This document shows positions 6,829 through 60,140 of a stretch of DNA of 64,000 bases, one piece after another; positions within the stretch are counted from its first letter, which is position 1; each line of letters begins with the position of its first letter. Under the pieces are notes generated by a model. The model saw nothing but the letters and a program-made list of their open reading frames with translations, ran no database searches and had not been told where the DNA came from. The translations under genes and the position numbers were made by a program. Origin of the DNA: Microbacterium wangchenii (lineage in GTDB: Bacteria > Actinomycetota > Actinomycetes > Actinomycetales > Microbacteriaceae); the NCBI RefSeq assembly GCF_004564355.1, contig NZ_CP038266.1, positions 1 through 64,000 on the forward strand. Direction: 5' to 3'.

Positions 6829-6855
6829 GCCTCACCGACGAAGAACTGAGAAGAC

Positions 6856-9453
6856 ATGTCTGACGACGCTTCGACCGGCGCGGGCGAGCCCCGCCCCGAG
6901 CCCATCCACGAGCACGGCAAGATCGACCAGGTCGACCTGCAGCTGGAGATGCAGCGCAGCTACCTCGACTACGCGATGAGCGTCATCGTGGGTCGCGCGC
7001 TCCCCGACGTGCGCGACGGGCTCAAGCCCGTGCACCGCCGCGTGATCTACGGCATGTACGACGGTGGATTCCGCCCCGACAAGTCGTTCTCCAAGTGCGC
7101 CCGTGTCGTCGGCGAGGTGATGGGTCACTACCACCCGCACGGTGATGCCCCGATCTACGACGCCCTCGTGCGCCTCGTGCAGCCGTGGTCGCTGCGCTAC
7201 CCGCTCGCGCTGGGACAGGGCAACTTCGGCTCCCCCGGAAACCAGGGCGCCGCCGCCCCCCGGTACACCGAGACGAAGATGGCTCCCCTCGCGCTGGAGA
7301 TGGTGCGCGACATCGAAGAGGAGACCGTCGACTTCCAGGACAACTACGACGGTCAGACGCAGGAGCCCACGGTCCTGCCCGCCCGCTTCCCGAACCTCTT
7401 GGTGAACGGGTCGGTCGGCATCGCCGTCGGCATGGCCACGAACATCCCGCCGCACAACCTCCGCGAAGTCGCCGCCGGCGCCGTGTGGGCGCTGGATCAC
7501 CCGGATGCCACGCGCGAAGAGCTGCTCGAAGCCCTCATGGCGCGCATCCCCGGGCCCGACTTCCCCACCGCCGCGCAGATCCTCGGCACCCGCGGCATCA
7601 AGGACGCCTACCGCACCGGCCGCGGCTCGATCACGATGCGCGCCGTCGTCAACGTCGAAGAGGTCCAGGGCCGCACGTGCCTGGTCATCACCGAACTGCC
7701 GTACCAGGTCAACCCCGACAACGTCGCGGTGAAGATCAGCGACCTCGCGCGCGACGGCAAGATCACCGGTATCGCCGACATCCGCGACGAGTCCTCCGGG
7801 CGCACCGGACAGCGCCTGGTCATCGTGCTCAAGCGGGATGCCGTCGCCAAGGTCGTGCTGAACAACCTGTACAAGCACACGCAGCTGCAGGAGAACTTCG
7901 GCGCCAACATGCTGGCGATCGTGGACGGCGTGCCGCGCACGCTGCCGCTGGACGGCTTCATCTCGTTGTGGATCGAGCACCAGGTCGAGGTCATCGTCCG
8001 CCGCACGCGGTACCGGCTCCGCGAGGCCGAGAAGCGCATGCACATCCTGCGCGGCTACCTCAAGGCGCTCGACGCGCTCGATGAGGTCATCGCGCTCATC
8101 CGCCGCTCCCCCACCGTGGAGGAGGCGCGTGAGGGCCTCAAGACCCTGCTCGACGTCGACGACGATCAGGCGCAGGCGATCCTCGACATGCAGCTGCGAC
8201 GTCTCGCGGCGCTGGAGCGGCAGAAGATCGTCGACCAGGCCACCGAGCTCGAGGCGCGCATCGCGGACTACAACGACATCCTCGCCGACGAGCTTCGCCA
8301 GCGCTCGATCATCCGCGACGAACTGAGCGTCATCGTGGAGAAGTTCGGCGACGACCGCCGCACCGAGATCGTGCCGGGCTACGACGGCGACATGAGCATC
8401 GAAGACCTCATCCCCGAAGAGGAGATGGTGGTCACCGTCACCCGCGACGGGTACATCAAGCGCACACGCAGCGACAACTACCGGTCGCAGCACCGCGGCG
8501 GACGCGGTGTGAAGGGCGCGCAGCTGCGCGCCGACGACGTCGTGGAGCACTTCTTCGTCACCACGACGCACCACTGGCTGCTGTTCTTCACGAACAAGGG
8601 CCGCGTGTACCGCGCCAAGGCGTACGAAGTGCCCGAGGCCGGGCGCGACGCGAAGGGCCAGCACGTCGCCAACCTGCTCGCCCTGCAGCCGGAGGAGGAG
8701 ATCGCGCAGATCCTCGACATCCGCGATTACGAAGTGGCCACCTACCTCACCCTGGCCACGCGCGGTGGCCTGGTGAAGAAGACGCGCCTGTCGGAGTACG
8801 ACACGAACCGTCAGGGCGGCGTCATCGCGATCCGCCTCCGCGAGGGCGACGAGCTCGTGAGCGCCCTCCTCGTGGACGAGGGCGATGACATCATGCTCAT
8901 CAGCCGCCACGGCATGTCGTTGCGCTTCACCGCCACCGACGAGTCGCTGCGGCCGATGGGCCGGGCCACCGAGGGTGTGAAGGGCATGTCCTTCCGTGGG
9001 GATGACAGCCTCCTGTCGGCATCGGTCGTCTCCGAGGACGGCTACGTCTTCGTCGTCACCGAGGGCGGCTACGCCAAGCGCACTGCGGTGGACCAGTACC
9101 GGACCCAGAGCCGCGGCGGTTTGGGCATCAAGGTCGCCCGCCTGAGCGATGATCGCGGCGATCTCGCCGGTGGTCTCATGGTGTCGGAGGACGACGAGGT
9201 GCTTGTGGTTCTTGCCAGCGGCAAGGTGGTACGCTCTGCCGTGGCCGAGGTGCCTGCCAAGGGACGTGACACCATGGGAGTCGTTTTCGCCCGCGCCGGT
9301 GGAGACGATCGCATCATCGCGATCGCCCGCAACAGCGAGCGGAGCATGACCGCCCTGGCCCAGGATTCCGAGCCCGTGGCCGATGCGCCCGCCGTCGATG
9401 CGGCCGCATCCGAAGCCTCCGCCGAGACCACCGAGGAGAGTACTGACGCATGA
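6856..9453 (+). CDS. gyrA: DNA gyrase subunit A
   Basis: Breakage-reunion subunit of gyrase, 865 residues. The catalytic tyrosine is Y137 in the motif APRYTE. The C-terminal half carries beta-pinwheel repeats for DNA wrapping, with GyrA boxes visible as [10 protein letters not shown] near 546 and QSRGGLGIK near 756. The quinolone-determining region reads [13 protein letters not shown], so Ala98 and Pro99 stand where E. coli has Ser83 and Ala84 (Mycobacterium Ala90/Ser91); the acidic Asp102 is kept. The tail after about 830 is Ala/Glu-rich and probably disordered. The stop overlaps the next ATG (ATGA). Confidence 0.98.
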
Positions 9454-9854
9454 GCACGGTAGCCGACAAGCTCGCCAAGAAGTCCACCCACAAGACCGGT
9501 GCCAAGCAGGTGCGCCTGCGGCTGGTCTATGTGGACTTCTGGTCGGCGGTCAAGCTCTCGTTCCTGGCCGCCGTCGCCCTGGCGATCGTCACCGTGGTGT
9601 CGTTCTTCCTCATCTACATGGTCGTGAAGACCACCGGGCTCATCGACCGGGTGGATGAGTTCTTCACGAGCTTCTCCGACGGCGGCGTGTCGCTGGAGGC
9701 GTTCGTGGGGCTGCCACAGGTGATGGCGTTCGCGGCGATCGTCGCGATCCTGAACCTCATCGTCGTGACGGTGCTGGGCGCCGTGGTCGCCGGCATCTAC
9801 AACCTCGCGGTGAAGGTCACCGGGGGACTCCTCGTCGGCTTCACGTCGAACTGA
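9450..9854 (+). CDS. DUF3566 transmembrane protein
   Basis: Small membrane protein of 134 residues that follows gyrA in many actinobacteria (compare Rv0007). A basic N-terminus ([16 protein letters not shown]) is followed by one hydrophobic helix near 34-57 and a second near 90-118, with a short polar segment between. The ATG overlaps the gyrA stop, so it is co-translated with gyrase. Its function is not established, and nothing in the sequence suggests an enzyme. Confidence 0.9.
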
Positions 9855-32828: not shown

Positions 32829-32851
32829 TACTGTGTTCTAGTCATCTAGAA
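32829..32851 (+). promoter_or_regulatory. Promoter -10 and GntR-type operator of the TrpA-like operon
   Basis: TTCTAG (32836-32841) and CTAGAA (32846-32851) form a perfect inverted repeat around TCAT. HutC-subfamily GntR regulators typically bind CTAGA-containing palindromes. A -10-like TACTGT (32829-32834) directly precedes it, so bound regulator would cover the transcription start. The operon's second gene encodes a HutC-type GntR protein. Confidence 0.7.
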
Positions 32852-32871
32852 GAGTTCGATGAGGAGCATCC

Positions 32872-33678
32872 GTGGCCAACCGCCTGAGACACCGGCTGGC
32901 GCAGGCACGCGCCGAGCGCCGCGGCATGCTGATGGGCTTCCTGCCCGCCGGCTATCCCGACCCCGACCGCTTCCGCCGGGCCGCCGGTGCCGCGTTCGAG
33001 GCCGGGTTGGACGCGCTGGAAGTGAGCATGCCCGGGCCGGCACCCGCGCTGGACGGACCCCTCATCCAGGCCGCCGCCCTGCAGGCCTCGCACCACCTCG
33101 GCTCGATCGCGGAGGCGCTCGAGCTGGCCGCCTCCAGCCGCCGCGACCCGGGGGATTCGATCATCGCCCTCGCGTACGCCCGCACGCTGGAGCGCCTCCC
33201 CGCCGAGGAGTTCCTCGACGCGCTCGCCGCCGCCGACATCGACGGCGTGCTGTTGCCGCAGCATCCGGTCGCCGAGCAGCTCCGGATCGGCGCCCTGGCG
33301 CGTGAGCGGGGCATCGAGCCGGTGGTCTTCCTGCACCTGCAGGAGGACCTCGCGCTGCTCTCGTCGGGGGTGTTCCCCGACCCCTTCATCTACCTGCAGT
33401 CCGCCGAGGGCCAGACCGGCGGCCGCTTCAATGCGGCCAAGGCCGCCGAGCGCCTCGGTGAGCTGGCGGAGGCGTTCGGCCAGCGCCCGTACGGGGTGTG
33501 CGTCGGCTTCGGCGTGCGTGGCTACGAAGAGGTGCAGCGACTCATGATCGCCGGCGCGGACGGCGCGATCATCGGCACGCGCCTGGTCGCCGCCGCCAAC
33601 GAGGGTCCGGAGGAGGTGGCGGCGATCGTCGACGAGGTCGCGCCCATCCTCGTGCGCCGGGACGAGGTGCGCGCATGA
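32872..33678 (+). CDS. TrpA-fold aldolase-like protein (not biosynthetic TrpA)
   Basis: 268-residue relative of tryptophan synthase alpha, a TIM barrel that performs a retro-aldol reaction. Both catalytic acids are in register: Glu in ALEVSMP and Asp eleven residues later in ALDGPLIQ (E49 and D60 in E. coli). Phosphate-site elements persist: YLQSAEGQTGG, VGFGVRGYEEV and GADGAIIGTRLV. The loop FSDPLA of TrpA is replaced by GPAPAL, and no trpB or other trp gene is nearby. GTG start with GAGGAG ribosome site. First gene of a sugar ABC/kinase operon, overlapping the GntR gene by ATGA. I infer an aldolase for the phosphosugar made by the kinase; the reaction is unknown. Confidence 0.8.
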   Translation: MANRLRHRLAQARAERRGMLMGFLPAGYPDPDRFRRAAGAAFEAGLDALEVSMPGPAPALDGPLIQAAALQASHHLGSIAEALELAASSRRDPGDSIIALAYARTLERLPAEEFLDALAAADIDGVLLPQHPVAEQLRIGALARERGIEPVVFLHLQEDLALLSSGVFPDPFIYLQSAEGQTGGRFNAAKAAERLGELAEAFGQRPYGVCVGFGVRGYEEVQRLMIAGADGAIIGTRLVAAANEGPEEVAAIVDEVAPILVRRDEVRA

Positions 33679-34517
33679 GCGAGCGGACCCCGTGGAGCCC
33701 GCAGCGGATCTCCTTCAGCCGCAACGACGGCCTGCCCAAGTACCTCGCGATCGCCCGGGCCGTGGCGCTGGCGATCACCGAGGAGGAGCTCACCGCCGGC
33801 GAGACCCTGCCCTCCCAGAAGGAACTGGCCGAGAGCTTCGGTGTCACGGTCATGACCGTGCGTCAGGCCGTGCAGACCCTCACCGACCAGGGCCTGCTCA
33901 GCACCGAGCAGGGCAAGGGCACGTACGTGCGCAGCCGCCCGTATCGCCTGGAGATGGGCCCGCTGGCGAGCTTCGCGGCTCAGATCGCCGCGTCCGGGCG
34001 GACGCTGCGCACCGAGGTGCTCGGGTACGCCGCGATCGAGGTGTCGCCCCTGGAACAGCGGCGGATGGCGCTGCCCACGCGGGAGGCGTTCGAGCTCGTG
34101 CGGCTGCGTTACGTCGACGGCGAGCCCCTCATCCTCCAGACCTCGCTGCTCTCGCCCGCCGTCGCCGCGGGGATCGAGGTGGCGACGCTGGAGACGCGCT
34201 CGCTGTACGACGTGCTCTCCACCGACCTCGGCATCCGGATCGACCGGGCGACCGAGACCGTGCAGGCGACGAACCTCGACGCCGAGTCGGCCGGGCTGCT
34301 GCACCGCGCGGAAGGGGAGGCGGCGCTGCTGTCGGCCCGCCTGACGCTGAGCGCAGACGGGGTCGCGGTGGTGGATGACCGCGCCCTCACCGCCGGCGAC
34401 AGCGTGGTGGTCTCCGCCGAGCGCCGCGCCGACGAGCCGGGCCTGGAGCTCGTGCTCTCCAGCGACGCCCCCATCATCGCCGACGAATCCACGCCGTTCG
34501 TACGCGGCGGTCGCTGA
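33675..34517 (+). CDS. GntR family (HutC-type) transcriptional regulator
   Basis: 280 residues. Winged helix-turn-helix near 20-85 (LPSQKELAESFGVTVMTVRQ, then GKGTYV), followed by a UTRA ligand-binding domain (about 95-270), which in this subfamily senses sugar phosphates or similar effectors. ATG 33675 overlaps the TrpA-like stop. The longer frame upstream lies inside that gene. Likely autoregulator acting on the palindrome at 32836-32851. Confidence 0.9.
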   Translation: MSERTPWSPQRISFSRNDGLPKYLAIARAVALAITEEELTAGETLPSQKELAESFGVTVMTVRQAVQTLTDQGLLSTEQGKGTYVRSRPYRLEMGPLASFAAQIAASGRTLRTEVLGYAAIEVSPLEQRRMALPTREAFELVRLRYVDGEPLILQTSLLSPAVAAGIEVATLETRSLYDVLSTDLGIRIDRATETVQATNLDAESAGLLHRAEGEAALLSARLTLSADGVAVVDDRALTAGDSVVVSAERRADEPGLELVLSSDAPIIADESTPFVRGGR

Positions 34518-34540
34518 CGACCGCCGGGAACAGGAAGAGC

Positions 34541-36046
34541 ATGACCACCACCCTCACGGCCGCACCCGTGCTCGCCACGCGCGGCCTCAGCAAGGACTAC
34601 GGCCCCGTCCGCGTCGTCTCGGACCTGTCGCTGGAGTTCCACGCCGGCAGCATCCACGCGCTCCTCGGCGAGAACGGCGCAGGGAAGTCCACACTCATCA
34701 AGATGCTCGCCGGCGTGATCGCCCCGAGCGGCGGCGAGGTCGTGCTCGACGGGGTACCGGCCGCCCTGCGCTCGGTGCCCGACGGACAGGCGCGCGGGGT
34801 CGTCGCCCTGCCACAGGAGCTCACGCTCGTGCCGACCCTGGGGGCGGCGGAGAACATCTTCCTCGGCACGCGCCGACGCGGCATCCCCGGGATCGTCGAC
34901 CGCCGCAGGCTCGACCGCGACGCCCGTGCGCTCCTGGAACGCCTCGGCCAGGCGCTGCCGCTGAACGTGCCGGTGGGGGAGCTGTCCGCGGTGCAGCAGA
35001 CCATGATCGCCCTCGCCCGGGCGCTCGCGCGGGATGCGCGCGTGCTGATCCTGGACGAGCCGACCGCGGCGCTCACCGACACCGAGACCGAGCAGCTGTT
35101 CGTCGTGCTCCGTGCCCTCCGCGACGCCGGGACGGCCATCCTCTACGTCTCGCACCGCCTCGAGGAGGTGTTCGCCCTCGCCGACACCGCCACCGTGATG
35201 CGCAACGGCCGGCACGTGTGGACCAAGCCGATCGCCCAGACCCACACCGACGACGTGGTGTCGGCCATGATCGGGCGCGAGCACGGCCAGGTCTACCCCG
35301 CCCGGGCCGGTACCGCCGGTCCGGTGCTGCTCGCGGTGGACGACCTCGGCGGCTATACCCTCCGCGGGGTCAGCCTGCAGGCGCGCTCCGGCCGCGTGCT
35401 GGGCATCGCGGGCCTGGCCGGGGCCGGGCGCAGCGAGCTGCTGAAGATCATCGCCGGTGCCGAGCGCGCGCAGACCGGACGCGTGCTCCTGGACGGCGAC
35501 GACGTGACCCGCCTGGGACTGGCGCGGTCGATGGATGCGGGCATCGCCTACGTCCCGGAGGAGCGCCGCAGCCAGGGGCTCGTCATGACGCACTCGATCC
35601 AGGCCAACATCGCCCTCGGCAACCTGCGGGCGCTGAGCGTGGCGGGCGTGGCATCCGCCCGGCGCGAGCGAGAAGCGGCCGAGCGCGGCCGCACCGACCT
35701 GCAGATCAAGACGACATCGGTGGGCCAGCCGGTGGAGGAGCTGTCCGGCGGCAACCAGCAGAAGGTCGTCCTCGCCAAATACCTCCAGCGGCGGCCCCGC
35801 GTGCTGCTCCTGGACGAGCCGACGCGCGGCATCGACATCGGCACGAAGGCGGAGATCTACCAGCTCATCCGGCGCCTGGCGGACGAGGGCGTCGCCGTCG
35901 TGGTCGTCTCCAGCGAGATCCCCGAGCTGCTGGGGCTGGCCGACGAGATCGCCGTGCTGCACGAGGGCCGGCTCACCGGCGTCGCCGACCCCGCCGCATC
36001 CACCGAAGAATCCATCCTCCACCTCTGCTACAGGAAGTCCGAATGA
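34541..36046 (+). CDS. Sugar ABC transporter ATP-binding protein (RbsA/XylG type)
   Basis: 501 residues, two fused nucleotide-binding domains. First: Walker A GENGAGKST near 43-51, LSAVQQ signature variant and LILDEPTAAL. Second: degenerate Walker A GLAGAGRSEL near 291, full signature LSGGNQQK near 402-409, and LLLDEPTRGID. This is the standard asymmetric arrangement of CUT2 sugar importers. Ribosome site AGGAAGAG before the ATG. Its stop overlaps the permease start. Confidence 0.95.
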   Translation: MTTTLTAAPVLATRGLSKDYGPVRVVSDLSLEFHAGSIHALLGENGAGKSTLIKMLAGVIAPSGGEVVLDGVPAALRSVPDGQARGVVALPQELTLVPTLGAAENIFLGTRRRGIPGIVDRRRLDRDARALLERLGQALPLNVPVGELSAVQQTMIALARALARDARVLILDEPTAALTDTETEQLFVVLRALRDAGTAILYVSHRLEEVFALADTATVMRNGRHVWTKPIAQTHTDDVVSAMIGREHGQVYPARAGTAGPVLLAVDDLGGYTLRGVSLQARSGRVLGIAGLAGAGRSELLKIIAGAERAQTGRVLLDGDDVTRLGLARSMDAGIAYVPEERRSQGLVMTHSIQANIALGNLRALSVAGVASARREREAAERGRTDLQIKTTSVGQPVEELSGGNQQKVVLAKYLQRRPRVLLLDEPTRGIDIGTKAEIYQLIRRLADEGVAVVVVSSEIPELLGLADEIAVLHEGRLTGVADPAASTEESILHLCYRKSE

Positions 36047-37026
36047 TGTCCACGACCACTCCGCAGGCGCCCGCCGCCGGCACGCGCGGTGCAGCGCTGC
36101 CGGCGCGCCTGGCCTCCTACGGGACCCTGCTCGGCCTGCTCGCCCTCATCGTGCTGTTCGCGGTGCTCAAGCCGCAGGTGTTCCTCACCCCGGTGAACTT
36201 CACCAACATCCTCGAGCAGCTCGCAATCCTCGCCATGATCGCCGCCGTGCAGACGGTCGTCATGGTCGTGGGCGACTTCGACCTGTCGGTCGGATCGCTC
36301 GCGAGCCTCGTCGGCGTCATCACGGCGCAGCTCCTGGTGGGCGGGATGGATCCGCTGCTGGCCGTCGGGCTCGGCCTGCTCACGGGGCTCGCCGCCGGTG
36401 CGATCAACGGATTCCTGGTGGCCTACCTCGGCCTCTCGGCGTTCATCGCGACCCTCGCGACGATGACCTCCTTCACGGGCCTGGCGCTGCTGCTGTCCAA
36501 CGGCGCCACCGTCTTCGGCCTCCCCGAGGGCTTCGTGTGGCTCGGCCAGGGCCGCGTGGGCCCGGTCCCCGTTCCCGTCATCGTCGCGATCATCCTGGTG
36601 CTGCTGGTGTGGTTCGCGCTGTCGAAGACCGTCCTCGGGCGCAGCTGGTACGCCGTGGGCGGCAACGCGGAGGCGGCACGCCTGTCGGGCGTGAACACCA
36701 AGCTCGTGCGCTTCTCCGCCTTCGTCGTGGCGGGCTTCGGCGCGGCTCTCGCGGGCATCGTGCTCACCGCGCGGCTCGCGTCGGGTCACCCCACGGCGGC
36801 CGACCCGCTCATGCTGTCCTCGATCGCCGCCGTCTTCCTGGGCATCACCCTGTCGCGGGCGGGCCAGCCCACCGTCGGCGGCACCGTCGTGGGCCTGGGC
36901 ATCGTCGGCGTGCTCAACAACGGCCTGAACATCCTGCAGGTCAACAGCTACGTGCAGCAGGTGCTCACCGGCGTGATCATCGTCCTGGCCGTGAGCCTGA
37001 GCCGTCTCAGCAGGAAGCGGCGCTGA
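36043..37026 (+). CDS. Sugar ABC transporter permease (RbsC/XylH type)
   Basis: 327 residues, eight to ten transmembrane helices, BPD_transp_2 family. Typical features include DFDLSVGSLASLVG near 86-99 and YAVGGNAEAARLSGVNT near 200-216 (the ATPase-coupling loop). Start ATG 36043 overlaps the ATPase stop (ATGA); ATG 36046 is an alternative. Part of the CUT2 importer with the ATPase upstream and the binding protein downstream. Confidence 0.94.
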   Translation: MMSTTTPQAPAAGTRGAALPARLASYGTLLGLLALIVLFAVLKPQVFLTPVNFTNILEQLAILAMIAAVQTVVMVVGDFDLSVGSLASLVGVITAQLLVGGMDPLLAVGLGLLTGLAAGAINGFLVAYLGLSAFIATLATMTSFTGLALLLSNGATVFGLPEGFVWLGQGRVGPVPVPVIVAIILVLLVWFALSKTVLGRSWYAVGGNAEAARLSGVNTKLVRFSAFVVAGFGAALAGIVLTARLASGHPTAADPLMLSSIAAVFLGITLSRAGQPTVGGTVVGLGIVGVLNNGLNILQVNSYVQQVLTGVIIVLAVSLSRLSRKRR

Positions 37027-37027
37027 C

Positions 37028-38521
37028 ATGACGCTCATCGCGGGCCTGGATATCGGCACGTCGAGCGTCAAGCTCGCCGTGCTGACGTCCGAGGGGACGG
37101 TGATCGCGCGGGCCACCGCGTCGTACGACACCGTCCATGGCCCCGGCGGCATCGTCGAGCAGCGGCCGGAGGACTGGTGGGATGCGGCGTGCCGTGCGCT
37201 CGCCGACACCGGGGTGGCCGACCGCATCGACGCCCTGGGCGTCACCGGGCAGATGCAGGACCTCATCGTGGTCGGCGCCGGCGGCCGGTCGCTGCGCCCC
37301 GCGCTGCTGTACTCCGACACGCGCGCCGGCGCGCAGCATGAGCGGCTGCGCGCGAGCATCCCGGAGTGGGAGCGGCGCACCGGCAACCATCAGGACCTCA
37401 CGAACGTCGCCGCGAAGCTCGCGTGGCTCGCCGAGCACGAACCGCGCGTGCTGGCCGAGGCGACGCAGCTGTTCTTCGGTGCGGCCGGCTACCTGGCCTG
37501 GCGCGCGGGCGGCCGGGCCACGTGCGACGTGATGACCGCGTCCACGACGGGCCTGCTCGACATCGACGCGCGCACGTGGCTGGTCGACGCGATCTCGGCC
37601 GCCGGCGCACCCGCCGACCGCTTCCCCGTCCTCGTGGGGGCGGTCCCCGGCGACGCGGCGGCGGGGACCGTGTCGCCGACGGCGGCGGCCGAACTCGGCG
37701 TCCGCGCGGGCATCCCCGTCGTGGTCGCTCCCGGCGATGCCGGCTCGGCCACCGACGGGCTCGTCGGTTCCGCACCCGGCGACGCCTACCTGTACCTCGG
37801 CACCACCGGCTGGCTGGCGGGCGTGACCGCGGGTGCGCCGGCCGAGCCCTCGCCCATCCATTCCCTCGTCCTGCCCGGGTGGAACCATCGCCTGCGCATC
37901 GGCGCGGTGCAGTCGGCCGGATCGGCTGCCGCGTGGGCGCGGCGCACGTTCTTCCCGCGCAGCGACTTCGCCGACGTGGAGGCTGCCGTCGCGGAGCGCG
38001 TCGGCGACCTCTCCGCCCGGCCGCTGTGCCTGCCCGGACTGGCCGGAGAGCGCACGCCTGTGCGCGACGGGCACTTCCGCGGTGCGTTCGTGGGCGTCAC
38101 CGATGCCACGGACGCCGTCGACCACTACCTCGCCGTCCTCACGGGTGTCGCGATGGGCCTGCGGCACGCGGCCGAGGCGATGCAGATTCGCCAGACCCGC
38201 ATCCCCGCCGTCGGCGGCGCGGCCTCCTCGCCCGCGTGGCGGCAGATCCTCGCCGACGTCTTCGACGCGACGATCGTCACGGGCGACGCGGAGGACCCCG
38301 GTTGCGTGTCGGCGGCGCGCGCGGCCGCCGACGCGGCGGGCCTGGGCGGCGGCATCCGTCCGCTGCTGGGACCCGGAGCCGAGGCGGAGGAGACGCACCC
38401 CGGCCCGGCGCGCAGTGCCTACGCGCGTCTGCTGGCCACCCACCGTGAGCTCTATCCGGCTCTGGCCGGAACCTTCCACGCGCTGGCCGGCATGCCGCCG
38501 CAGGCGCCGTACGACGAGTGA
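37028..38521 (+). CDS. FGGY family carbohydrate kinase (xylulokinase-like)
   Basis: 497 residues. N-terminal GLDIGTSSVKLAVL (6-19) and TGQMQDLIV near 74-82 are typical of xylulokinases; GDAGSATDGLVGS near 237-249 and the C-terminal VGGAASSPAWRQILADV (ATP site) are FGGY hallmarks. MQDLIV replaces the MHGLV/MHGAV seen in true xylulokinases, so the substrate may differ. It starts one base after the permease stop. I infer it phosphorylates the imported sugar to give the substrate of the TrpA-like protein. Confidence 0.9.
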   Translation: MTLIAGLDIGTSSVKLAVLTSEGTVIARATASYDTVHGPGGIVEQRPEDWWDAACRALADTGVADRIDALGVTGQMQDLIVVGAGGRSLRPALLYSDTRAGAQHERLRASIPEWERRTGNHQDLTNVAAKLAWLAEHEPRVLAEATQLFFGAAGYLAWRAGGRATCDVMTASTTGLLDIDARTWLVDAISAAGAPADRFPVLVGAVPGDAAAGTVSPTAAAELGVRAGIPVVVAPGDAGSATDGLVGSAPGDAYLYLGTTGWLAGVTAGAPAEPSPIHSLVLPGWNHRLRIGAVQSAGSAAAWARRTFFPRSDFADVEAAVAERVGDLSARPLCLPGLAGERTPVRDGHFRGAFVGVTDATDAVDHYLAVLTGVAMGLRHAAEAMQIRQTRIPAVGGAASSPAWRQILADVFDATIVTGDAEDPGCVSAARAAADAAGLGGGIRPLLGPGAEAEETHPGPARSAYARLLATHRELYPALAGTFHALAGMPPQAPYDE

Positions 38522-38561
38522 TCCCACTCGCACACCGTCCTCATCCATGAAAGGGAAGACA

Positions 38562-39491
38562 ATGAAGTTGAACAGAACCCTCGCGGCTCTGACCGTGACC
38601 GCCGTCGCCGGGCTCGGACTGACCGCGTGCGCCGGTGGTGCGGAGGCCGGCGACGGCGGCGACGGAGTCACCGTCACGGTCGTCACCCCCTACCTCGCCA
38701 ATGCCGCCACCAAGGAGGCCATCGACCTCTTCACCGCCGAGGGCGAGGAGCGCGGCTGGACCGTGTCGGTCGTGGACACCGCCGGCGACATGAACAAGCT
38801 CAACAGCGCGTTCCAGGATGCTGCCGCCCAGCAGCCCGACGCCATCGTTCTCGGCACCGGCGACCCGACGCAGATCTCGCTCGGCCTGAAGGCTGCCGCC
38901 GATGCGGACATCCCGGTGTTCGCGATCGACGCGGGCGCCGCCGACGGCATCGCGGCCAACGTCACGAGCGACAACGTCGACCTCGGCCAGCAGAGCGCCG
39001 GCGCCCTCATCGAGGCGATGGGCGGCACGGGGTCGGTGGTCATGCTCACCCACGACCCGCACCCCGGCGTGCGCGCGCGGGCGGAGGGTGCCCGCGAGGC
39101 GTTCGAGGCCGCCGGCATCGAGATCGTCGAGGAGAAGCACGTCAACGTGCCCGGTCCCGTGGATGACGCCCGCACCTCGGTCCAGGACGTCATCTCCGCC
39201 CGCGGCGGCGACGTCACCGGCATCTGGGGCGGCTGGGACGAGCCGGCCCTCGGCGCCGTGCAGGCGCTGCAGGCGGCCGGGGTCAGCGACATCCCGGTGG
39301 TCGGGGTCGACGGTCAGGACTTCGCGCTCGCCGAGATCGAGAAGGGCGGACCGTTCGTGGCGACCGTCAAGCAGGACTGGGCCGCGATCGTCCTCCAGGT
39401 GGCAGACCTCATCGGCGACTTCGTCGAGGAGGGCGCCGAGCCGGAACAGGGTCAGTACGAGCTGCCGGGGACGCTGGTCACCCAGCCCTGA
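38562..39491 (+). CDS. Sugar ABC transporter substrate-binding lipoprotein (RbsB-like)
   Basis: 309 residues. N-terminal signal peptide with lipobox LTAC (Cys near 22), then a two-lobed periplasmic-binding fold of the CUT2 class (Peripla_BP_4): VVTPYLANAATKEAIDLF, AIDAGAADGIAANVTSDN, IWGGWDEPALGAVQAL, VGVDGQDFA. Start ATG 38562 follows a ribosome site (AAGGGAAG). Last gene of the operon and ends 19 bp before a strong terminator. Ligand unknown. Confidence 0.93.
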   Translation: MKLNRTLAALTVTAVAGLGLTACAGGAEAGDGGDGVTVTVVTPYLANAATKEAIDLFTAEGEERGWTVSVVDTAGDMNKLNSAFQDAAAQQPDAIVLGTGDPTQISLGLKAAADADIPVFAIDAGAADGIAANVTSDNVDLGQQSAGALIEAMGGTGSVVMLTHDPHPGVRARAEGAREAFEAAGIEIVEEKHVNVPGPVDDARTSVQDVISARGGDVTGIWGGWDEPALGAVQALQAAGVSDIPVVGVDGQDFALAEIEKGGPFVATVKQDWAAIVLQVADLIGDFVEEGAEPEQGQYELPGTLVTQP

Positions 39492-52778: not shown

Positions 52779-52851
52779 TTCGAGCCAGCAGACACCATGG
52801 CGGCGTCCGCGCCCCGGCTGCGAGCCGGACCCGAACGAGGAGGTTTTGGGA

Positions 52852-53823
52852 ATGAAGAAGAAGATCCTGGCGGCAGCAGCCCTGCTCAGTGCGGTCCTCT
52901 TGACCGCGACCGGATGCGCGGGCAACGCGGGCGGAGGCGACGGCGGGGGCGACGTCATCACGGTCGGCTTCGCACAGACCGGCTCGGAGTCGGGCTGGCG
53001 GGCCGCGAACACCGAATCGATGAAGGAGGCCTTCTCGTCCGAGAACGGCTTCGATCTGAAGTTCAACGCGGCCGACAACAAGCAGGAGGCGCAGATCGCA
53101 GCCGTCCGCAACTTCATCAACCAGGGCGTGGACGCGATCGTGATCGCCCCCATCACGGTCGATGGCTGGGACGACGTGCTCACCGAGGCCAAGGACGCCG
53201 GGATCCCGGTCATCCTGGAGGACCGTACGGTCAGCGCGAGCGAGGATCTGTACGCGTCGTGGGTCGGCCTGGACTTCGAGCAGGAGGGGAAGACCGCCGG
53301 CGAATGGGTGAAGGAGAACTTCGACGGCAAGGGCGCGAACCTGGTCGTCCTGGAGGGCACCACCGGATCGTCGGCGGCGCTGGATCGGGCCACCGGCTTC
53401 AACGCGGCGATCGAGGGCACCGACATCACCGTGATGGACTCGCAGACCGGTGACTTCACCCGCGACGGCGGCAAGAAGGTCATGGAGGGCTACCTGCAGA
53501 AGTACGGTTCGGACATCGACGTGCTGTTCGCGCACAACGACGACATGGGCCTGGGTGCGCTCGACGCGATCAAGGCCGCGGGCCTCGTCCCCGGCACGGA
53601 CATCCAGATCGTCACGATCGACGCCGTCAAGGACGGGATGACCGCACTGGCCAACGGCGAGTTCAACTTCATCGTGGAGTGCAACCCGCTCCTCGGCGAG
53701 CAGGCCGCCGAGCTGGTCAAGAAGGTGCTCGCCGGCGAGGAGGTCGAGAAGGCGACCATCGTCGAGGACCAGTCCTTCACGCAGGAGCAGGCGAAAGAGG
53801 TCCTGGACTCGCGTCCCTACTGA
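52852..53823 (+). CDS. ytfQ: Galactofuranose-type ABC transporter substrate-binding lipoprotein
   Basis: 323 residues. Signal peptide MKKKILAAAALLSAVLL with lipobox TGC (Cys near 24), then a CUT2 binding protein strongly resembling E. coli YtfQ: VGFAQTGSESGWRAANTES, DNKQEAQIAAVRNF, VDAIVIAPITVDGWDDVL, AHNDDMGLGALDAI. YtfQ binds galactofuranose and related pyranoses. ATG 52852 follows GAGGAGG; TTG 52846 is an unlikely alternative. A strong hairpin separates it from the ATPase gene, probably favouring excess binding protein. Confidence 0.93.
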   Translation: MKKKILAAAALLSAVLLTATGCAGNAGGGDGGGDVITVGFAQTGSESGWRAANTESMKEAFSSENGFDLKFNAADNKQEAQIAAVRNFINQGVDAIVIAPITVDGWDDVLTEAKDAGIPVILEDRTVSASEDLYASWVGLDFEQEGKTAGEWVKENFDGKGANLVVLEGTTGSSAALDRATGFNAAIEGTDITVMDSQTGDFTRDGGKKVMEGYLQKYGSDIDVLFAHNDDMGLGALDAIKAAGLVPGTDIQIVTIDAVKDGMTALANGEFNFIVECNPLLGEQAAELVKKVLAGEEVEKATIVEDQSFTQEQAKEVLDSRPY

Positions 53824-53845
53824 GTCCGTCGCATCCGACACCCGG

Positions 53846-53877
53846 CCGCCGGGACCGGGAATCCCGGTGCCCGGCGG
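53846..53877 (+). other. Intercistronic hairpin after the binding-protein gene
   Basis: CCGCCGGGACCGGGA (53846-53860) pairs with TCCCGGTGCCCGGCGG (53862-53877) with a single bulged G, a very stable stem in the 76-bp gap between binding protein and ATPase. Such stems partly terminate transcription or protect the 3' end of the upstream message. Confidence 0.75.
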
Positions 53878-53899
53878 TCCGCCTCGGAAGGAGGCCCGC

Positions 53900-55492
53900 A
53901 TGACCGACGACACCGTCGTCCGCCCCCGGAAGCACCGGGACATCTCCGCCGCACCCGTCGCCGAGCTGCGCGGCATCACCGTCGAGTTCCCCGGGGTGAA
54001 GGCACTGGACGGGGTGGACCTCACGCTTCGCGCCGGTGAGGTGCACACCCTCATGGGCGAGAACGGCGCCGGCAAGTCCACCCTCATCAAGGCACTCACG
54101 GGGGTGTATCCGGTCGCCGCCGGCACGATCACGATCGGTGGTGCGGCACGCGTGTTCCGCACCACGGCAGACGCCGAGGCGGCGGGGATCTCCACCGTCT
54201 ACCAGGAGGTCAACCTCTGCACCAACCTCTCCGTGGGCGAGAACGTCATGCTCGGCCACGAGGTGCGCCGCGCGGGGGCGATCGATTGGCGGGCGACCCA
54301 CCGGGAGGCAGCGCGCCACCTCGCCAACCTCGGCCTGGGCATCGACACCCGCTCGACGCTGGGGACGCACTCGATCGCCGTCCAGCAGCTGGTCGCGATC
54401 AGCCGGGCGATGGTGTCGGATGCGTCGGTGCTCGTGCTCGACGAACCCACCTCGAGCCTGGACCGCAGCGAAGTCGAGCAGCTCTTCGCCGTCGTGCGCG
54501 ACCTTCGCGACCGCGGGGTCGCGATCCTGTTCGTCACGCACTTCCTCGACCAGGTCTACGAGATCTCCGATCGGCTCACTGTGCTGCGCAATGGGCGCTT
54601 CGTGGGGGAGTACCTGATCGATGAGCTCCCCCGCGGTGAGCTCATCGCGAAGATGATCGGCCGCGAGCTCGATGAGCTCGAGGCGCTCTCCCGCACGGCG
54701 GAGCGGGAGATCGACCGCTCGGCGGTGCCGGTGCTCTCCGCGGTGGGGGTGGGCCGCAAGAGCGTCCTCGAGCCCGTCGACGTCGAGGTCTTCGACGGCG
54801 AAGTGGTCGGGATCGCGGGTCTGCTGGGCTCGGGACGCACCGAGCTGGCGCGGCTGCTGTACGGTGCCGACCGCGCGGACACCGGCCGGCACATCGTCCG
54901 CGGCCTGCCCGCACGCATCACGACGCCGCGGCATGCGATCGACCGGCGCATCGCGTTCTCGTCGGAGGATCGGCGGGCCGAGGGCATCATCTCCGATCTC
55001 ACCGTCGCCGAGAACGTCATCCTGGGCATCCAGGCCAAGCGCGGCGCACTGCGCAGGATGGGCAGGGCCGAGCAGGACGCGATCGTCTCCGAGTACATCG
55101 CGGCGCTGGGAGTGCGCCCGGCCGATCCGCACGCGCTCGTGCGCAACCTCTCCGGCGGGAACCAGCAGAAGGTGCTGCTCGCGCGGTGGCTGGCCACCGC
55201 CCCCCAGCTGATCATCCTGGACGAGCCCACGCGCGGTATCGACGTGGGCGCCAAGGCCGACATCCAGAAGAAGGTCGCCGAGCTGTCGGCCGAGGGACTG
55301 GCCGTCGTGTTCATCTCCTCCGAGCTGGAGGAGGTCATCCGGATCGCGCAGCGCATCGTCGTGATGCGCGACCGTCGTAAGATCGGCGAACTGGACGCCA
55401 CGGAGGTCGACGTCGACGATCTCGTCGCCGTCATCGCCGACGAATCCCGCGAGACGGAGCCGTCTCGCCAGAGCCCGGAGACAGCGGCATGA
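53900..55492 (+). CDS. ytfR: Sugar ABC transporter ATP-binding protein 1 (YtfR-like)
   Basis: 530 residues, two nucleotide-binding domains. First: Walker A GENGAGKST near 53-61, IAVQQLVAISRAM in place of LSGGQ, and LDEPTSSLD. Second: GLLGSGRTEL near 312 (degenerate Walker A), LSGGNQQKVLLAR near 417-429 and LDEPTRGIDVGAK. ATG 53900 follows GGAGG; the first 25 residues are a polar extension. Its stop overlaps the first permease. Paralogous to the ATPase at 57604 in the same operon. Confidence 0.94.
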   Translation: MTDDTVVRPRKHRDISAAPVAELRGITVEFPGVKALDGVDLTLRAGEVHTLMGENGAGKSTLIKALTGVYPVAAGTITIGGAARVFRTTADAEAAGISTVYQEVNLCTNLSVGENVMLGHEVRRAGAIDWRATHREAARHLANLGLGIDTRSTLGTHSIAVQQLVAISRAMVSDASVLVLDEPTSSLDRSEVEQLFAVVRDLRDRGVAILFVTHFLDQVYEISDRLTVLRNGRFVGEYLIDELPRGELIAKMIGRELDELEALSRTAEREIDRSAVPVLSAVGVGRKSVLEPVDVEVFDGEVVGIAGLLGSGRTELARLLYGADRADTGRHIVRGLPARITTPRHAIDRRIAFSSEDRRAEGIISDLTVAENVILGIQAKRGALRRMGRAEQDAIVSEYIAALGVRPADPHALVRNLSGGNQQKVLLARWLATAPQLIILDEPTRGIDVGAKADIQKKVAELSAEGLAVVFISSELEEVIRIAQRIVVMRDRRKIGELDATEVDVDDLVAVIADESRETEPSRQSPETAA

Positions 55493-56538
55493 CATCGACT
55501 CTGACGGGTGTGTTCCGACACCGCCTGGTATGGCCGGTGGCGGCCCTGGCCGTCCTGATCGTGGTGAACACTATCGCGCGGCCGTCCTTCATCGGCATCA
55601 CGGTGCAGAACGGGCAGCTCTACGGTCCGCTCATCGACATCCTGCGCAACAGCGCGCCGCTCATGCTGGTGGCGCTGGGGATGACGCTCGTCATCGCCAC
55701 GCGCGGGATCGACCTCTCGGTCGGCGCGATCATGGCGGTGTCGGGGGCGGTCGCCTTGACCTTCATCTCCTCCGCGCCCAACCCGGGATCCCCGGCGACG
55801 GTGCTCACCGCGATCGCCCTGGGCGTGCTCGTCTCCCTCGTGCTCGGGCTGTGGAACGGCTTCCTCGTGTCGGTGGTCGGCGTCCAGCCGATCATCGCCA
55901 CGCTCGTCCTCATGCTCGCCGGCCGAGGCGTGGCGCTGCTGATCACCGGCGGCTTCATCACGACGATCAACAGCGACCCGTACCGGTTCATGGCGCAGGG
56001 CTACCTGTTCGGGCTGCCCTTCGCGTTCTACGTCTCGGTGCTCGCCATCGCCGTCGTCGCGCTGCTGGAACGGCGGACCGCGCTGGGGGTGCTCACCGAG
56101 GCGGTGGGCATCAACCCCGAGGCCAGCCGTCTCGCGGGCGTGCGGTCGCGCGGAATCATCTGGGGCGCGTACGCCGCCAGCGGCGTCCTGGCGGGGCTGG
56201 CCGGCATCCTGTACTCCTCGAACATCATGGCCGCCGACGCCAACGCCGCCGGTCTGTACATCGAGCTGGACGCCATCCTCGCCGTCGTGCTGGGCGGCAC
56301 GAGCCTCATGGGCGGCAAGTTCACGATCGCCGGCACCGTTGTCGGGGTCTTCACCATCCAGACGCTGAAGTCGACGATCACCTTCCTCGGCGTCCCGCCC
56401 GCGATCAGTCCGCTGTTCCTCGCGATCGTCGTGATCATCGTGGTGCTCGTGCAGTCGCCCCGCACCCGCGGTGGCCTCGCCCGGCTGGCGGCATCGGCCC
56501 GCCGCGCGCCCGCGACCAAGATGGGAGCCGCCTCGTGA
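55489..56538 (+). CDS. ytfT: Sugar ABC transporter permease (YtfT-like)
   Basis: 349 residues, about ten helices, BPD_transp_2 family. DLSVGAIMAVSGAV near 72-85, coupling loop TEAVGINPEASRLAGV near 200-215 and LGGTSLMGGKF near 265-275. Position directly after the YtfR-like ATPase and before a second permease matches E. coli ytfT. ATGA overlap with the ATPase. Confidence 0.93.
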   Translation: MTSTLTGVFRHRLVWPVAALAVLIVVNTIARPSFIGITVQNGQLYGPLIDILRNSAPLMLVALGMTLVIATRGIDLSVGAIMAVSGAVALTFISSAPNPGSPATVLTAIALGVLVSLVLGLWNGFLVSVVGVQPIIATLVLMLAGRGVALLITGGFITTINSDPYRFMAQGYLFGLPFAFYVSVLAIAVVALLERRTALGVLTEAVGINPEASRLAGVRSRGIIWGAYAASGVLAGLAGILYSSNIMAADANAAGLYIELDAILAVVLGGTSLMGGKFTIAGTVVGVFTIQTLKSTITFLGVPPAISPLFLAIVVIIVVLVQSPRTRGGLARLAASARRAPATKMGAAS

Positions 56539-57566
56539 CCACCCTGACCGCATCCGGCACCGAGCGCCGCGGAGCCGTCACCACCGCCGTGCAGCGGTTC
56601 CGCAGCCGGCACGCCTCGTGGGTCCCCGTCTTCGGTGCCCTCGTGATCCTCATCGCGATGATGGGAGGCGCGCAGGCGTACTTCGGCACGTTCGTCACCC
56701 CCCGCGTCCTGTCCGCGCTCCTGCTGGACAACGCCTACCTGCTGATCCTGGCGGTGGGGATGACCTTCGTCATCCTCACGGGCGGAATCGACCTGTCGGT
56801 GGGCGCCGTGATGGCCTTCACCGGGATGCTGGGGGCGAGCCTGCTGAGCCAGGGGCTGCCCACCGCCGTGGTCGTCCCCGTCATGCTCCTGCTGGGGGCG
56901 GGGATGGGGCTGGCCGTGGGCGTGATGGTGCAGTACTTCGGTGTGCAGCCGTTCATCGCCTCGCTCGCCGCGATGTTCGCCGCGCGGGGGCTGGCGTTCA
57001 TGGTGAGCCTGTCCTCGATCAAGGTGGAGGACCCTGCGATCCTGTGGCTGCAGTCCGCGCGCATTCAGGGGGCGCCGGGGAGCTTCTATCTCACGCCCAC
57101 CGGGATCCTCGCGCTGCTGGTGGTGCTCGTCGGCATCCTCGTCCTGCAGTTCACGCGCTTCGGCCGCACGATCTACGCCATCGGCGGCAATGAGCAGTCC
57201 GCGCGCCTCATGGGTCTCCCGGTCGTGCGCACGAAGCTGCTCGCCTACGTCATCAGCGGTGTGTGCGCCGGTCTGGCGGGCGTCGTCTTCACCGCGTACA
57301 CCGGGGCGTCTTACCCCCTGAACGGCATCGGCACCGAACTGGACACGATCGCCGCGGTCGTGATCGGCGGGACGCTGCTGACCGGGGGAAGCGGTTACGT
57401 GCTGGGGTCGATGATCGGCGTCTTCGTGTACGGCACGATCAAGACCGTCATCTCCTTCCTCGGCGCGGAGCAGGCCTGGACGCGCATCACGATCGGCGGC
57501 CTGCTCCTGATCTTCGTCGTCGTGCAGCGCGTCATCGTGGCGCGATCGGCGACCCAGCGTTCGTGA
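56535..57566 (+). CDS. yjfF: Sugar ABC transporter permease (YjfF-like)
   Basis: 343 residues, second permease of the importer. DLSVGAVMAFTGML near 86-99, AIGGNEQSARLMGLPV near 216-231, VIGGTLLTGGSGYVLGS near 277-293. Start GTG 56535 overlaps the previous stop (GTGA); the longer open frame lies within ytfT. Together with ytfT it would form the heterodimeric channel. Confidence 0.93.
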   Translation: MTTLTASGTERRGAVTTAVQRFRSRHASWVPVFGALVILIAMMGGAQAYFGTFVTPRVLSALLLDNAYLLILAVGMTFVILTGGIDLSVGAVMAFTGMLGASLLSQGLPTAVVVPVMLLLGAGMGLAVGVMVQYFGVQPFIASLAAMFAARGLAFMVSLSSIKVEDPAILWLQSARIQGAPGSFYLTPTGILALLVVLVGILVLQFTRFGRTIYAIGGNEQSARLMGLPVVRTKLLAYVISGVCAGLAGVVFTAYTGASYPLNGIGTELDTIAAVVIGGTLLTGGSGYVLGSMIGVFVYGTIKTVISFLGAEQAWTRITIGGLLLIFVVVQRVIVARSATQRS

Positions 57567-57603
57567 ACGGGATGCCGCGCCCCGCACCGGCATGATGGAG
57601 CCT

Positions 57604-59130
57604 ATGGATTCGCGCCCGACGACGGTCGCGCCGGTGGTCGAGGTCACCGGCGCGACCGTCCGGTTCGGTGCGGAGACGGTGCTGGATGCGGTGGACTTCC
57701 GCCTCTTCCCCGGCGAGGTGCACTCGCTCATGGGGGAGAACGGCGCCGGCAAGTCCACGCTCATCAAGGCCATCACGGGCGCGCTGCGGCTGGACGAGGG
57801 GGTCGTGCGCGTCGGGGGAGAGCCCGTGCGCCTGCGCAAGCCGGCGGACGCGCTCGCCGCCGGCATCAGCGCGGTCTACCAGGAGATCGATCTCCTGCCG
57901 AATCTCACCGTGGCGGAGAACATCCTCCTCGGCCGCGAACCGCGCCGCTTCGGTGCGATCGACTGGCGCCGGCTGAACACGCGGGCAGCGGAGGTGCTCG
58001 CCGAGCTCGGGCTCGACATCGACCCGCGCAGCACCCTCGTGCGCCACTCGCTCGCCGTGCAGCAGCTCGTCGCCATCGCGCGGGCGATCTCGGTCGACGT
58101 GCGCGTGCTGATCCTCGACGAGCCCACGTCGAGCCTCGACCTCGACGAGGTGGCGGAGCTGTTCCGCGTCATGCGCGAACTGCAGCAGCGAGGGGTCGCG
58201 ATCCTGTTCGTGTCGCACTTCCTCGACCAGGTGTACGAGATCTGCGACCGCATCACGGTGCTGCGGGGAGGGCGGCTCATCGGCGAGTACGTCCCGGACG
58301 AGCTTCTGCGCATCGATCTGGTGGAGAAGATGCTCGGTCGCACGAGCGAGGAGCTTCAGGTGCGCCAGGCGGTCGAGCCGGCCCCGGCGGACGCGGCGGC
58401 GTACGTCAGCGGTACCGGCATCACGGTCGGGACGGCGGTCACCGACGCCTCCCTGGCGATGGCGGAGGGCGAGGTGCTGGGCCTGGCGGGGCTGCTCGGG
58501 TCGGGGCGCACCGAACTGGCGCGCGTGCTCACCGGCATCGACCGGCCGGATGCCGGCAGCATCCGCGTCGCGGGCGTGCCGACCGTGCTCGGCTCGCCGC
58601 GGCAGGCCATCGGGCTCGGCATCGTGTACTCCTCCGAGAACCGGCGCACCGAGGGGATCATCGGCGACCTCAGCGTGGAGGACAACATCACCCTCGCCCT
58701 CCAGGCCGAGCGCGGCGTGTTCCAGCTGCTGGGGCGCCCACGGCGGCGCGAACTCGCGGCCAGCTGGATCGAGGCGCTGGACATCCGTCCCGCCGATCCC
58801 GATCGCCCCGCCCGCACGCTCTCCGGCGGCAATCAGCAGAAGGTGCTGCTGGCGCGCCTCCTCGCCCTGTCGCCGCGGGCGCTCGTCCTGGACGAGCCGA
58901 CGCGGGGCATCGACGTGGGCGCGAAGATCGAGATCCAGCGTCTCGTGGCCGACCTCGCCGACAACGGCCTGTCGGTGCTGTTCATCTCCGCCGAGCTGGA
59001 GGAGGTCCTGCGCGTGTCCTCCCGGGTCGCGGTGCTGCGCGCGGGCCGGGTCGCCGACATCCTGCCCGCCGAGGCGCTCACCGTGGATTCGCTGCTCGCG
59101 CGCGTGGCGCGCCCCGAGGACACCCCGTGA
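57604..59130 (+). CDS. Sugar ABC transporter ATP-binding protein 2 (RbsA type)
   Basis: 508 residues from ATG 57604, which has a GGAG ribosome site six bases upstream; ATG 57592 is an alternative without one. Two nucleotide-binding domains with the same key motifs as ATPase 1: GENGAGKSTLIKAI, LAVQQLVAIARAI, LDEPTSSLD, then GLLGSGRTEL and LSGGNQQKVLLARLL with LDEPTRGIDVGAK. No motif is broken, so it should be active. Placed after the permeases and before the LacI gene, a second complete ATPase for one permease pair is unusual. It overlaps the LacI gene by GTGA. Confidence 0.92.
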   Translation: MDSRPTTVAPVVEVTGATVRFGAETVLDAVDFRLFPGEVHSLMGENGAGKSTLIKAITGALRLDEGVVRVGGEPVRLRKPADALAAGISAVYQEIDLLPNLTVAENILLGREPRRFGAIDWRRLNTRAAEVLAELGLDIDPRSTLVRHSLAVQQLVAIARAISVDVRVLILDEPTSSLDLDEVAELFRVMRELQQRGVAILFVSHFLDQVYEICDRITVLRGGRLIGEYVPDELLRIDLVEKMLGRTSEELQVRQAVEPAPADAAAYVSGTGITVGTAVTDASLAMAEGEVLGLAGLLGSGRTELARVLTGIDRPDAGSIRVAGVPTVLGSPRQAIGLGIVYSSENRRTEGIIGDLSVEDNITLALQAERGVFQLLGRPRRRELAASWIEALDIRPADPDRPARTLSGGNQQKVLLARLLALSPRALVLDEPTRGIDVGAKIEIQRLVADLADNGLSVLFISAELEEVLRVSSRVAVLRAGRVADILPAEALTVDSLLARVARPEDTP

Positions 59131-60140
59131 GCGATGAGCGCGGCGCGAAATCCGCCAACATCTTCGACGTCGCGCGGCTGGCGGGCGTATCGCACCAGAC
59201 CGTGTCCCGTGTGCTCAACGACCTTCCCAACGTCCGCCCCGCGACACGTGCGCGCGTGGAGCAGGCCATCACCCAGCTGCGATACAGCCCTTCGCCGGCG
59301 GCGCGGGCGCTCGTCACGCGGCGCACCCGCACGATCGGGCTGGTCACCCCGGGAAGCGCCGACTTCGGGCCGACGTCGATCGCGATGCACTTCACCGTCG
59401 CGGCCCGTGCCGAACGGTACTCCGTCGACACGGTCACCTCACCCGATCCCGATCCGGCCAGCGTGCGCTCGGCGGTCGAGACCCTCCTGCGTCAGCGCGT
59501 GGACGCGATCGTGCTCGTCGTGACGGACGTCGGGGTTCTCGAGGTGGTGCGCGGTCTCGACCTCAGCGTTCCTCTGGTCGCCGCCGCCGCGACGCAGCGC
59601 CGGCATCCGCACCTGGTCTCCATCGACCAGTACCGCGGCGCCCGGTCGGCGGTGCGGCATCTCGCCGAGCTCGGGCACAGCCGCATCCTGCACGTCGCCG
59701 GCCCGCCGCGGAACCCCGATGCCCTGGAACGCGTCCGCGGATGGCGCGACGAGCTGGCCGCGCGGCGCCTCGTGGCCGAGGAGCCGCGCAACGGGGACTG
59801 GTCGGCCGCGAGCGGCTACGAGCTGGGGCGGGAGCTCGACCTCGGATCGGGCACGGCCGTGTTCGTGGGGAACGACCACATGGCGATCGGCCTGCTGTCG
59901 GCGCTGCGGGGCCGCGGACTGAGTGTGCCCGAGGACATCAGCGTCGTCGGGTTCGACGACGTGCCCGAGGCGCCCTACCTCATGCCGCCGTTGACGACGG
60001 TGCGCCAGGACTTCCGCGCTCTGGGGGAGCTCATGATGCAGAAGGTGCTGCTGGCGGTCGAGGAGCCCGAGAGCCTGACCGAGGACACCCCCATCGCGAC
60101 CCACCTCATCGTGCGGGAATCCGCCCGCGCGCTGGGGTGA
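59127..60140 (+). CDS. LacI family transcriptional regulator
   Basis: 337 residues. Helix-turn-helix NIFDVARLAGVSHQTVSRVL near 11-30 and hinge with SPSPAARAL, then an effector domain (TIGLVTPGSADFG, GHSRILHVAGPP, FVGNDHMAIGLL, VVGFDDVPEAPYLMPPLTTV). Start GTG overlaps the ATPase 2 stop. Last gene of the YtfQ-type operon; likely represses it through the paired operators at 52733-52778, with a galactose-type sugar as inducer. Confidence 0.93.
   Translation: MSDERGAKSANIFDVARLAGVSHQTVSRVLNDLPNVRPATRARVEQAITQLRYSPSPAARALVTRRTRTIGLVTPGSADFGPTSIAMHFTVAARAERYSVDTVTSPDPDPASVRSAVETLLRQRVDAIVLVVTDVGVLEVVRGLDLSVPLVAAAATQRRHPHLVSIDQYRGARSAVRHLAELGHSRILHVAGPPRNPDALERVRGWRDELAARRLVAEEPRNGDWSAASGYELGRELDLGSGTAVFVGNDHMAIGLLSALRGRGLSVPEDISVVGFDDVPEAPYLMPPLTTVRQDFRALGELMMQKVLLAVEEPESLTEDTPIATHLIVRESARALG

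Follow-up and report, generated by a model that had tools for sequence, protein, structure and literature searches.

To our knowledge, TrpA has been described in two roles only, as the half of tryptophan synthase that makes indole and as the stand-alone indole lyases of plants. The plant enzyme BX1 is biosynthetic and is not known to be tied to an importer or a kinase. Two other described settings are close to the locus treated here. In trpB-trpA-gntR modules, such as those of Rhodococcus erythropolis pRLCBG43 and Prescottella equi p1-WH99, a gene for a GntR/UTRA regulator lies beside trpA or trpB, and operons of the ribose, arabinose and xylulose type combine the ABC ATPase, permease and binding protein of a CUT2 importer with an FGGY kinase. 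Here we describe a six-gene operon of Microbacterium wangchenii (assembly GCF_004564355.1, contig NZ_CP038266.1; genome label G000) that shares features with both. It opens with a TrpA-like gene, which is followed by genes for a related GntR/UTRA regulator, a CUT2-type importer and an FGGY kinase, and it contains no trpB. No report of a TrpA homologue in an importer-kinase operon was found in open-access papers, among the matches listed. The comparisons below give good support to a separate, TrpB-free, operon-bound lineage of TrpA, as judged from sequence.

The operon and its carriers

The window, that is, the whole stretch of DNA analysed, is 64,000 nucleotides long, and all coordinates are positions in it unless a locus is named. 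The six genes lie on the forward strand at 32872-39491.

32829..32834, forward strand: -10-like hexamer TACTGT, assigned by eye, two bases 5' of the palindrome
32837..32850, no strand assigned: palindrome TCTAGTCATCTAGA (pattern TCTAGTnnTCTAGA) upstream of the TrpA-like gene; putative operator, predicted to be bound by GntR
32872..33678, forward strand: TrpA-like protein, 268 residues, GTG start; PF00290 at 120.2 bits (gathering cut-off, 27)
33675..34517, forward strand: GntR/UTRA regulator; PF00392 and PF07702
34541..36046, forward strand: CUT2-type sugar importer ATPase; ABC_tran in two stretches
36043..37026, forward strand: CUT2-type permease; BPD_transp_2
37028..38521, forward strand: FGGY kinase with a GQMQDLIV motif; PF00370/PF02782 (FGGY_N/C)
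38547..39491, forward strand: periplasmic binding protein; Peripla_BP_4; alternative ATG 15 bases later

The TrpA-like and gntR genes overlap in the ATGA at 33675, the ATPase and permease genes overlap at 36043-36046, and a single base separates the permease gene from the kinase gene. A previous sequence-only reading of this stretch had described a TrpA-like gene heading an operon with these families, and all six genes were confirmed with the families named. Its starting coordinate, 32829, falls, to the eye, on the -10-like hexamer; the gene itself starts with the GTG at 32872. The same reading had seen no trpB nearby. Indeed, with the genome's own TrpB as query, the best match in the 64-kb window had an E value of 0.10, and no TrpB match at 1e-3 was present in the loci of the other six carriers. 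The reading had also considered that this might be the only trpA of the genome, which is not the case: a second, canonical trpA (PF00290, 232.5 bits) adjoins trpB elsewhere. Unlike typical CUT2-FGGY operons, the locus includes a TrpA-like gene, has no isomerase or dehydrogenase gene among its six, and encodes proteins whose listed matches to NCBIfam sugar models fall under cut-off.

Seven distinct carriers of the TrpA-like gene were identified, all in the Microbacteriaceae: M. wangchenii, G127 (locus L042), Microbacterium resistens (L034), Leucobacter massiliensis (L035), Candidatus Leucobacter sulfamidivorax (L033), G689 (L071) and G1410 (L083). L033, L034 and L035 were found by a scan of GTDB contigs (67% identical); G173 shares its coordinates with the M. 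resistens locus and was counted once. Common to all seven carriers are the TrpA-like gene, the GntR gene, an FGGY kinase, an ABC importer and the upstream palindrome. The six-gene order is intact in six of the seven (in L042 the permease was assigned from an open reading frame in the expected place and the other genes by match), and this recurrence argues for more than chance. The association with importer, kinase and regulator that the sequence-only reading expected in relatives is therefore conserved in the carriers, but the carriers themselves are rare, with a clear ortholog in only 3 of 366 same-genus genomes. Clear orthologs were likewise found in 3 of the 54 genomes belonging to the same genus as L. 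massiliensis, in 2 of 299 genomes sampled from the family (M. wangchenii among them) and in 1 of 396 sampled from the phylum, which is M. wangchenii itself. Among plasmids, the TrpA-like protein had no match at 1e-8. A DNA search among plasmids yielded 1,195 records; in none of them did a single place span 80% of the query, and those listed match the importer part.

The carrier with a different layout is L033, in which the TrpA-like gene, the GntR gene and the palindrome are kept and are followed by genes for an NMT1/SsuA-type importer, a second TrpA-like protein, another FGGY kinase and an SDR. The second TrpA-like protein and the kinase are 30% and 27% identical, respectively, to their window counterparts, and the cluster is bounded by IS1595- and IS110-type transposase genes. 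The second TrpA-like gene (L033, 14374-15138) has Met at position 175 and lacks the stretch 103-105 in the alignment; its matches listed among 297 genomes of the order are 32-42% identical, with no standout. An earlier tree placed it beside the carrier clade with weak support (75/68) and on a very long branch, and this placement was not used.

The operon is flanked in the window by nucS on one side and an MFS gene on the other, and in the close relative G127 it occupies the same place. In G049, the sole flank-bearing one of ten other same-genus near-origin stretches, these flanks enclose a ParA-like gene instead (by eye), so the slot varies in at least this pair of genomes. The called flanking genes of L033, L034 and L035 include no match to the window flanks. 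Neighbouring genes not common to other carriers include an aldo/keto reductase gene about 560 bases downstream of the operon in L034 and, on its upstream side in L071, genes for an SDR, an aldehyde dehydrogenase and an amine oxidase. In L083, genes of the methylcitrate type (MmgE/PrpD, PEP-mutase-type and citrate synthase) lie directly upstream, at 6009-9623. Elsewhere in the window, gyrB and gyrA were recognised by eye at 4792-9453, and the window seems to start at the chromosome origin region; a further CUT2-type importer, which to the eye looks galactofuranose-like, lies together with a LacI-type regulator gene at 52846-60140.

Residues and pocket of the TrpA-like clade

In TrpA trees the carrier proteins form a separate, long-branched clade of their own and do not cluster with biosynthetic TrpA, the other outcome that the sequence-only reading had allowed for. 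The TIGR00262 model (cut-off 102.35) gives the window protein 102.7, only 0.35 above the cut-off, and the other carriers 101.3, 89.8, 87.6, 85.7, 80.4 and 76.2. E49, D60, Y102, Y175, T183, G184, G213 and G234 are present in all seven carriers, as are the phosphate loops, which bears out the earlier claim that both catalytic acids are in register and that these loops are kept. The loop between the acids is altered, also as claimed (GPAPAL in the window protein, FSDPLA in Salmonella).

The residues associated with TrpB follow a different pattern. D56, N104 and D130 are absent from all seven carriers, whereas all three are present in the 13 TrpA of the GntR-linked modules and in 50/50, 49/50 and 50/50 canonical TrpA, respectively; we take N104 to be a TrpB-side residue. 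According to the available text of PMC6608616, D56 contacts TrpB, and the significant effects of changes at D56 and P57 are confined to the TrpAB complex. D130 is described as a residue of the allosteric network of TrpA in the available text of PMC8187860.

Within the pocket, position 177 is Gln in all seven carriers and in none of 52 TrpA compared, nor in any of the 13 GntR-linked TrpA, and this is the sole hydrophobic-to-polar change there. The window protein is 23% identical to plant BX1. The available text of PMC12930369 names 14 active-site residues of ZmBX1, of which, with BX1 positions mapped to Salmonella numbering by offset and without alignment, 11 are shared by the window protein, 10-11 by the carriers and 7-9 (mean, 8.4) by 50 canonical TrpA. 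However, the 13 GntR-linked TrpA that have a trpB share 8-12 of these residues, so likeness to the BX1 pocket is not on its own a mark of a stand-alone lyase. A search with a structure model of the TrpA-like protein listed 50 PDB entries, all of them TrpA or BX1. We read the pocket as that of an enzyme that has probably retained the build for TrpA-type cleavage.

Another possible use of the fold was also noted. The TrpA-like genes at L039 9278-10114 and L040 9688-10371 lie, as judged by eye, in clusters with TrpD-like, carrier protein, adenylating ligase and acyl-CoA dehydrogenase-like genes, possibly a biosynthetic use of the TrpA and TrpD folds; these loci were set aside.

The regulator and its kinship with tryptophan synthase modules

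A plasmid search with the window GntR returned trpB-trpA-gntR operons in R. erythropolis and P. equi with the trpA/gntR overlap seen in the window. In the class sample, two PF00290 matches were found in 22 of 296 genomes (M. wangchenii excluded), and in 10 of these 22 a related GntR gene lay beside the second trpBA pair. Together with three plasmid-collection records, this gave 13 modules from several actinobacterial families (L103, L104, L043-L046, L105-L110 and L115; two are on the Rhodococcus and Prescottella plasmids). Ten have the order trpB-trpA-gntR, and in three (L044, L045 and L106) gntR is divergent before trpB. The overlap of trpA and gntR is present in L103 and L104. Four other fetched trpBA stretches (L111-L114) contained no match to the window GntR, so a related GntR gene does not stand beside every second trpBA. 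Unlike the window operon, the modules have a trpB, and their TrpA proteins keep the TrpB-side residues; inspection by eye of the surroundings of six modules revealed neither a sugar importer nor an FGGY kinase. In a tree of the regulators, the seven carriers and the 13 modules group together against nine other plasmid-record GntRs (98/97).

Each of the seven carriers has the palindrome TCTAGTnnTCTAGA 5' of the start of its TrpA-like gene. The six carrier genomes that were scanned each contain one site, at the operon, and a reversed control pattern gave 0. A single exact site per genome suggests a self-contained operon and, when exact matches are counted, a regulon seemingly limited to it. In 1.04 Mb of fetched loci, which overlap and were chosen around trpA, the pattern occurs only at the carrier operons and in three modules (L044, L106 and L103); the remaining ten carry different palindromes or lack one of this type. 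A -10-like hexamer stands by eye in the same place in L035 and L071 (TATAGT) and in L034 (TATGGT), with nothing comparable by eye in L033. A sigma-70 scan found no promoter pair upstream of the TrpA-like gene. By eye, the position of the hexamer before the palindrome in several carriers is compatible with repression at the transcription start. The operon would arise most simply from a GntR-linked tryptophan synthase module by loss of trpB and gain of an importer and a kinase.

Substrate and possible pathway

The transport and kinase genes resemble those of sugar operons. The best NCBIfam matches of the ATPase are AraG, XylG-type and RbsA, all under cut-off (best 25 of 195), and those of the permease are D-allose, GguB and ribose permeases, also under cut-off. 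The kinase had been described as departing from true xylulokinases, and indeed it scores 241.1 bits against XylB TIGR01312 (cut-off, 380.25), while two other kinases of the genome exceed this cut-off with 401.1 and 396.3. Asp237, which we take to be the catalytic base of the FGGY kinase, is invariant in the kinases of all seven carriers. In 3 other genomes of 198 (L084, L085 and L086) there are FGGY kinases, 42-44% identical, that share the GQMQDL motif; the 20 kb fetched around each contains no TrpA-like gene, and the surroundings differ. For the binding protein, the nearest solved chains by sequence are 3l49 and 4wt7, and both are near the top by fold. Its model (pLDDT, the per-residue model confidence, 82.9; six sequences) matches proteins of both the ribose and the allitol type and does not determine the ligand. 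A paper naming 4WT7 (PMC10318746) mentions, in its available text, allitol in complex with a binding protein from Agrobacterium vitis. These are hints of a linear polyol-like ligand.

We therefore propose, at what we judge to be an even chance, that the TrpA-like protein is a stand-alone lyase that cleaves the product of the kinase to glyceraldehyde 3-phosphate in a self-contained uptake pathway. The CUT2 importer would take up a polyhydroxylated compound, and the FGGY kinase would phosphorylate a terminal hydroxyl. The TrpA-like protein would then cut the C-C bond adjoining the phosphorylated glycerol end through the push-pull retro-aldol mechanism for which TrpA uses E49 and D60, giving glyceraldehyde 3-phosphate and a leaving group, either a ketose fragment or an aromatic ring. 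GntR would repress the operon at TCTAGTnnTCTAGA, and the substrate or its phosphate would relieve this repression. The sequence-only reading had proposed such a catabolic lyase yielding a triose phosphate from a sugar or polyol. The lyase part fits the kept catalytic and phosphate residues, but a sugar as substrate is weakened by the ZmBX1 residues shared by the window protein, as far as these are named in the available source, and by the NMT1/SsuA-type importer in one carrier. A BX1-like pocket with a single polar change likewise makes a plain sugar fragment less secure as leaving group. A more specific version, which we put forward only tentatively, is an undescribed route for the catabolism of heteroaryl- or aryl-polyols, in which a compound whose glycerol-like chain is attached through carbon to an aromatic ring would be imported, phosphorylated on the chain and cut at the ring-carbon bond to release glyceraldehyde 3-phosphate and the free ring. 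Such a route would bring together the sugar-type importer, the NMT1/SsuA-type importer found in L033, the retained indole-lyase pocket and the kinship of the GntR with tryptophan synthase modules.

Several observations weigh against the proposed lyase pathway. P57, which is likewise on the TrpB side, is present in all seven carriers. The mouth of the active site is altered (G51S, D130Q, 180 to E/D and S215R), and these changes may reflect other chemistry or service to a new substrate or reaction. The carrier clade is 58% identical to canonical TrpA in the pocket and 24% elsewhere (15% at eighteen hand-picked loop and TrpB-side positions), but canonical TrpA compared with Salmonella gives 50% and 27%, so this contrast is ordinary for TrpA and pocket conservation is no proof of the same reaction. 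The L033 cluster has a different importer and kinase together with its second TrpA-like gene and SDR. Finally, the TrpA tree favours neither GntR-linked nor canonical TrpA as the nearest group of the clade, and the GntR tree gives the carriers no definite place within their group (modules as one group, 71/14).

One rival explanation is a sugar-phosphate epimerase or isomerase, in which the kinase makes a ketose phosphate (e.g., hexulose 6-phosphate) and E49/D60 shift a proton with no C-C cleavage, the product being an ordinary glycolytic or pentose-phosphate intermediate. No further enzyme would be required, in keeping with an operon that is self-contained and has one palindrome; the top score of the permease is of the D-allose type, and TrpA and ribulose-phosphate epimerase belong to the same broad group of phosphate-binding barrels. 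However, the pocket is largely hydrophobic and BX1-like, the PDB entries listed for the model are all TrpA or BX1, although other families may still match, and what we take to be the epimerase pattern of two Asp and metal-binding His is not evident. We consider this explanation unlikely. The BX1-like pocket raises the question of a stand-alone lyase of the BX1 kind, which would still convert the cell's own indole-3-glycerol phosphate to indole and stand near the importer and kinase for some other reason. The carriers do share more of the named ZmBX1 residues than canonical TrpA, the TrpB-side residues are gone, as an enzyme working alone would lead one to expect, and a trpBA-linked origin of the regulator agrees with it. 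Yet GntR-linked TrpA paired with trpB share a comparable number of these residues, Gln177 sets the carriers apart, and the FGGY kinase and ABC importer in all seven carriers would be left unexplained, which makes this rather improbable. That the protein is a backup biosynthetic TrpA pairing with the genome's own TrpB is suggested by its score just over the TIGR00262 cut-off, but the other six carriers fall under it, D56, N104 and D130 are gone throughout, and a canonical trpBA is already present; we regard it as highly improbable.

As TIGR00262 narrowly accepts the window protein, genes of this lineage may carry a trpA annotation. The operon is small and seemingly self-contained, so its substrate could be identified by a binding screen. 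If the proposed lyase pathway is correct, it would show an allosteric biosynthetic subunit turned catabolic, with the likely starting point, the trpB-trpA-gntR modules, surviving in relatives.

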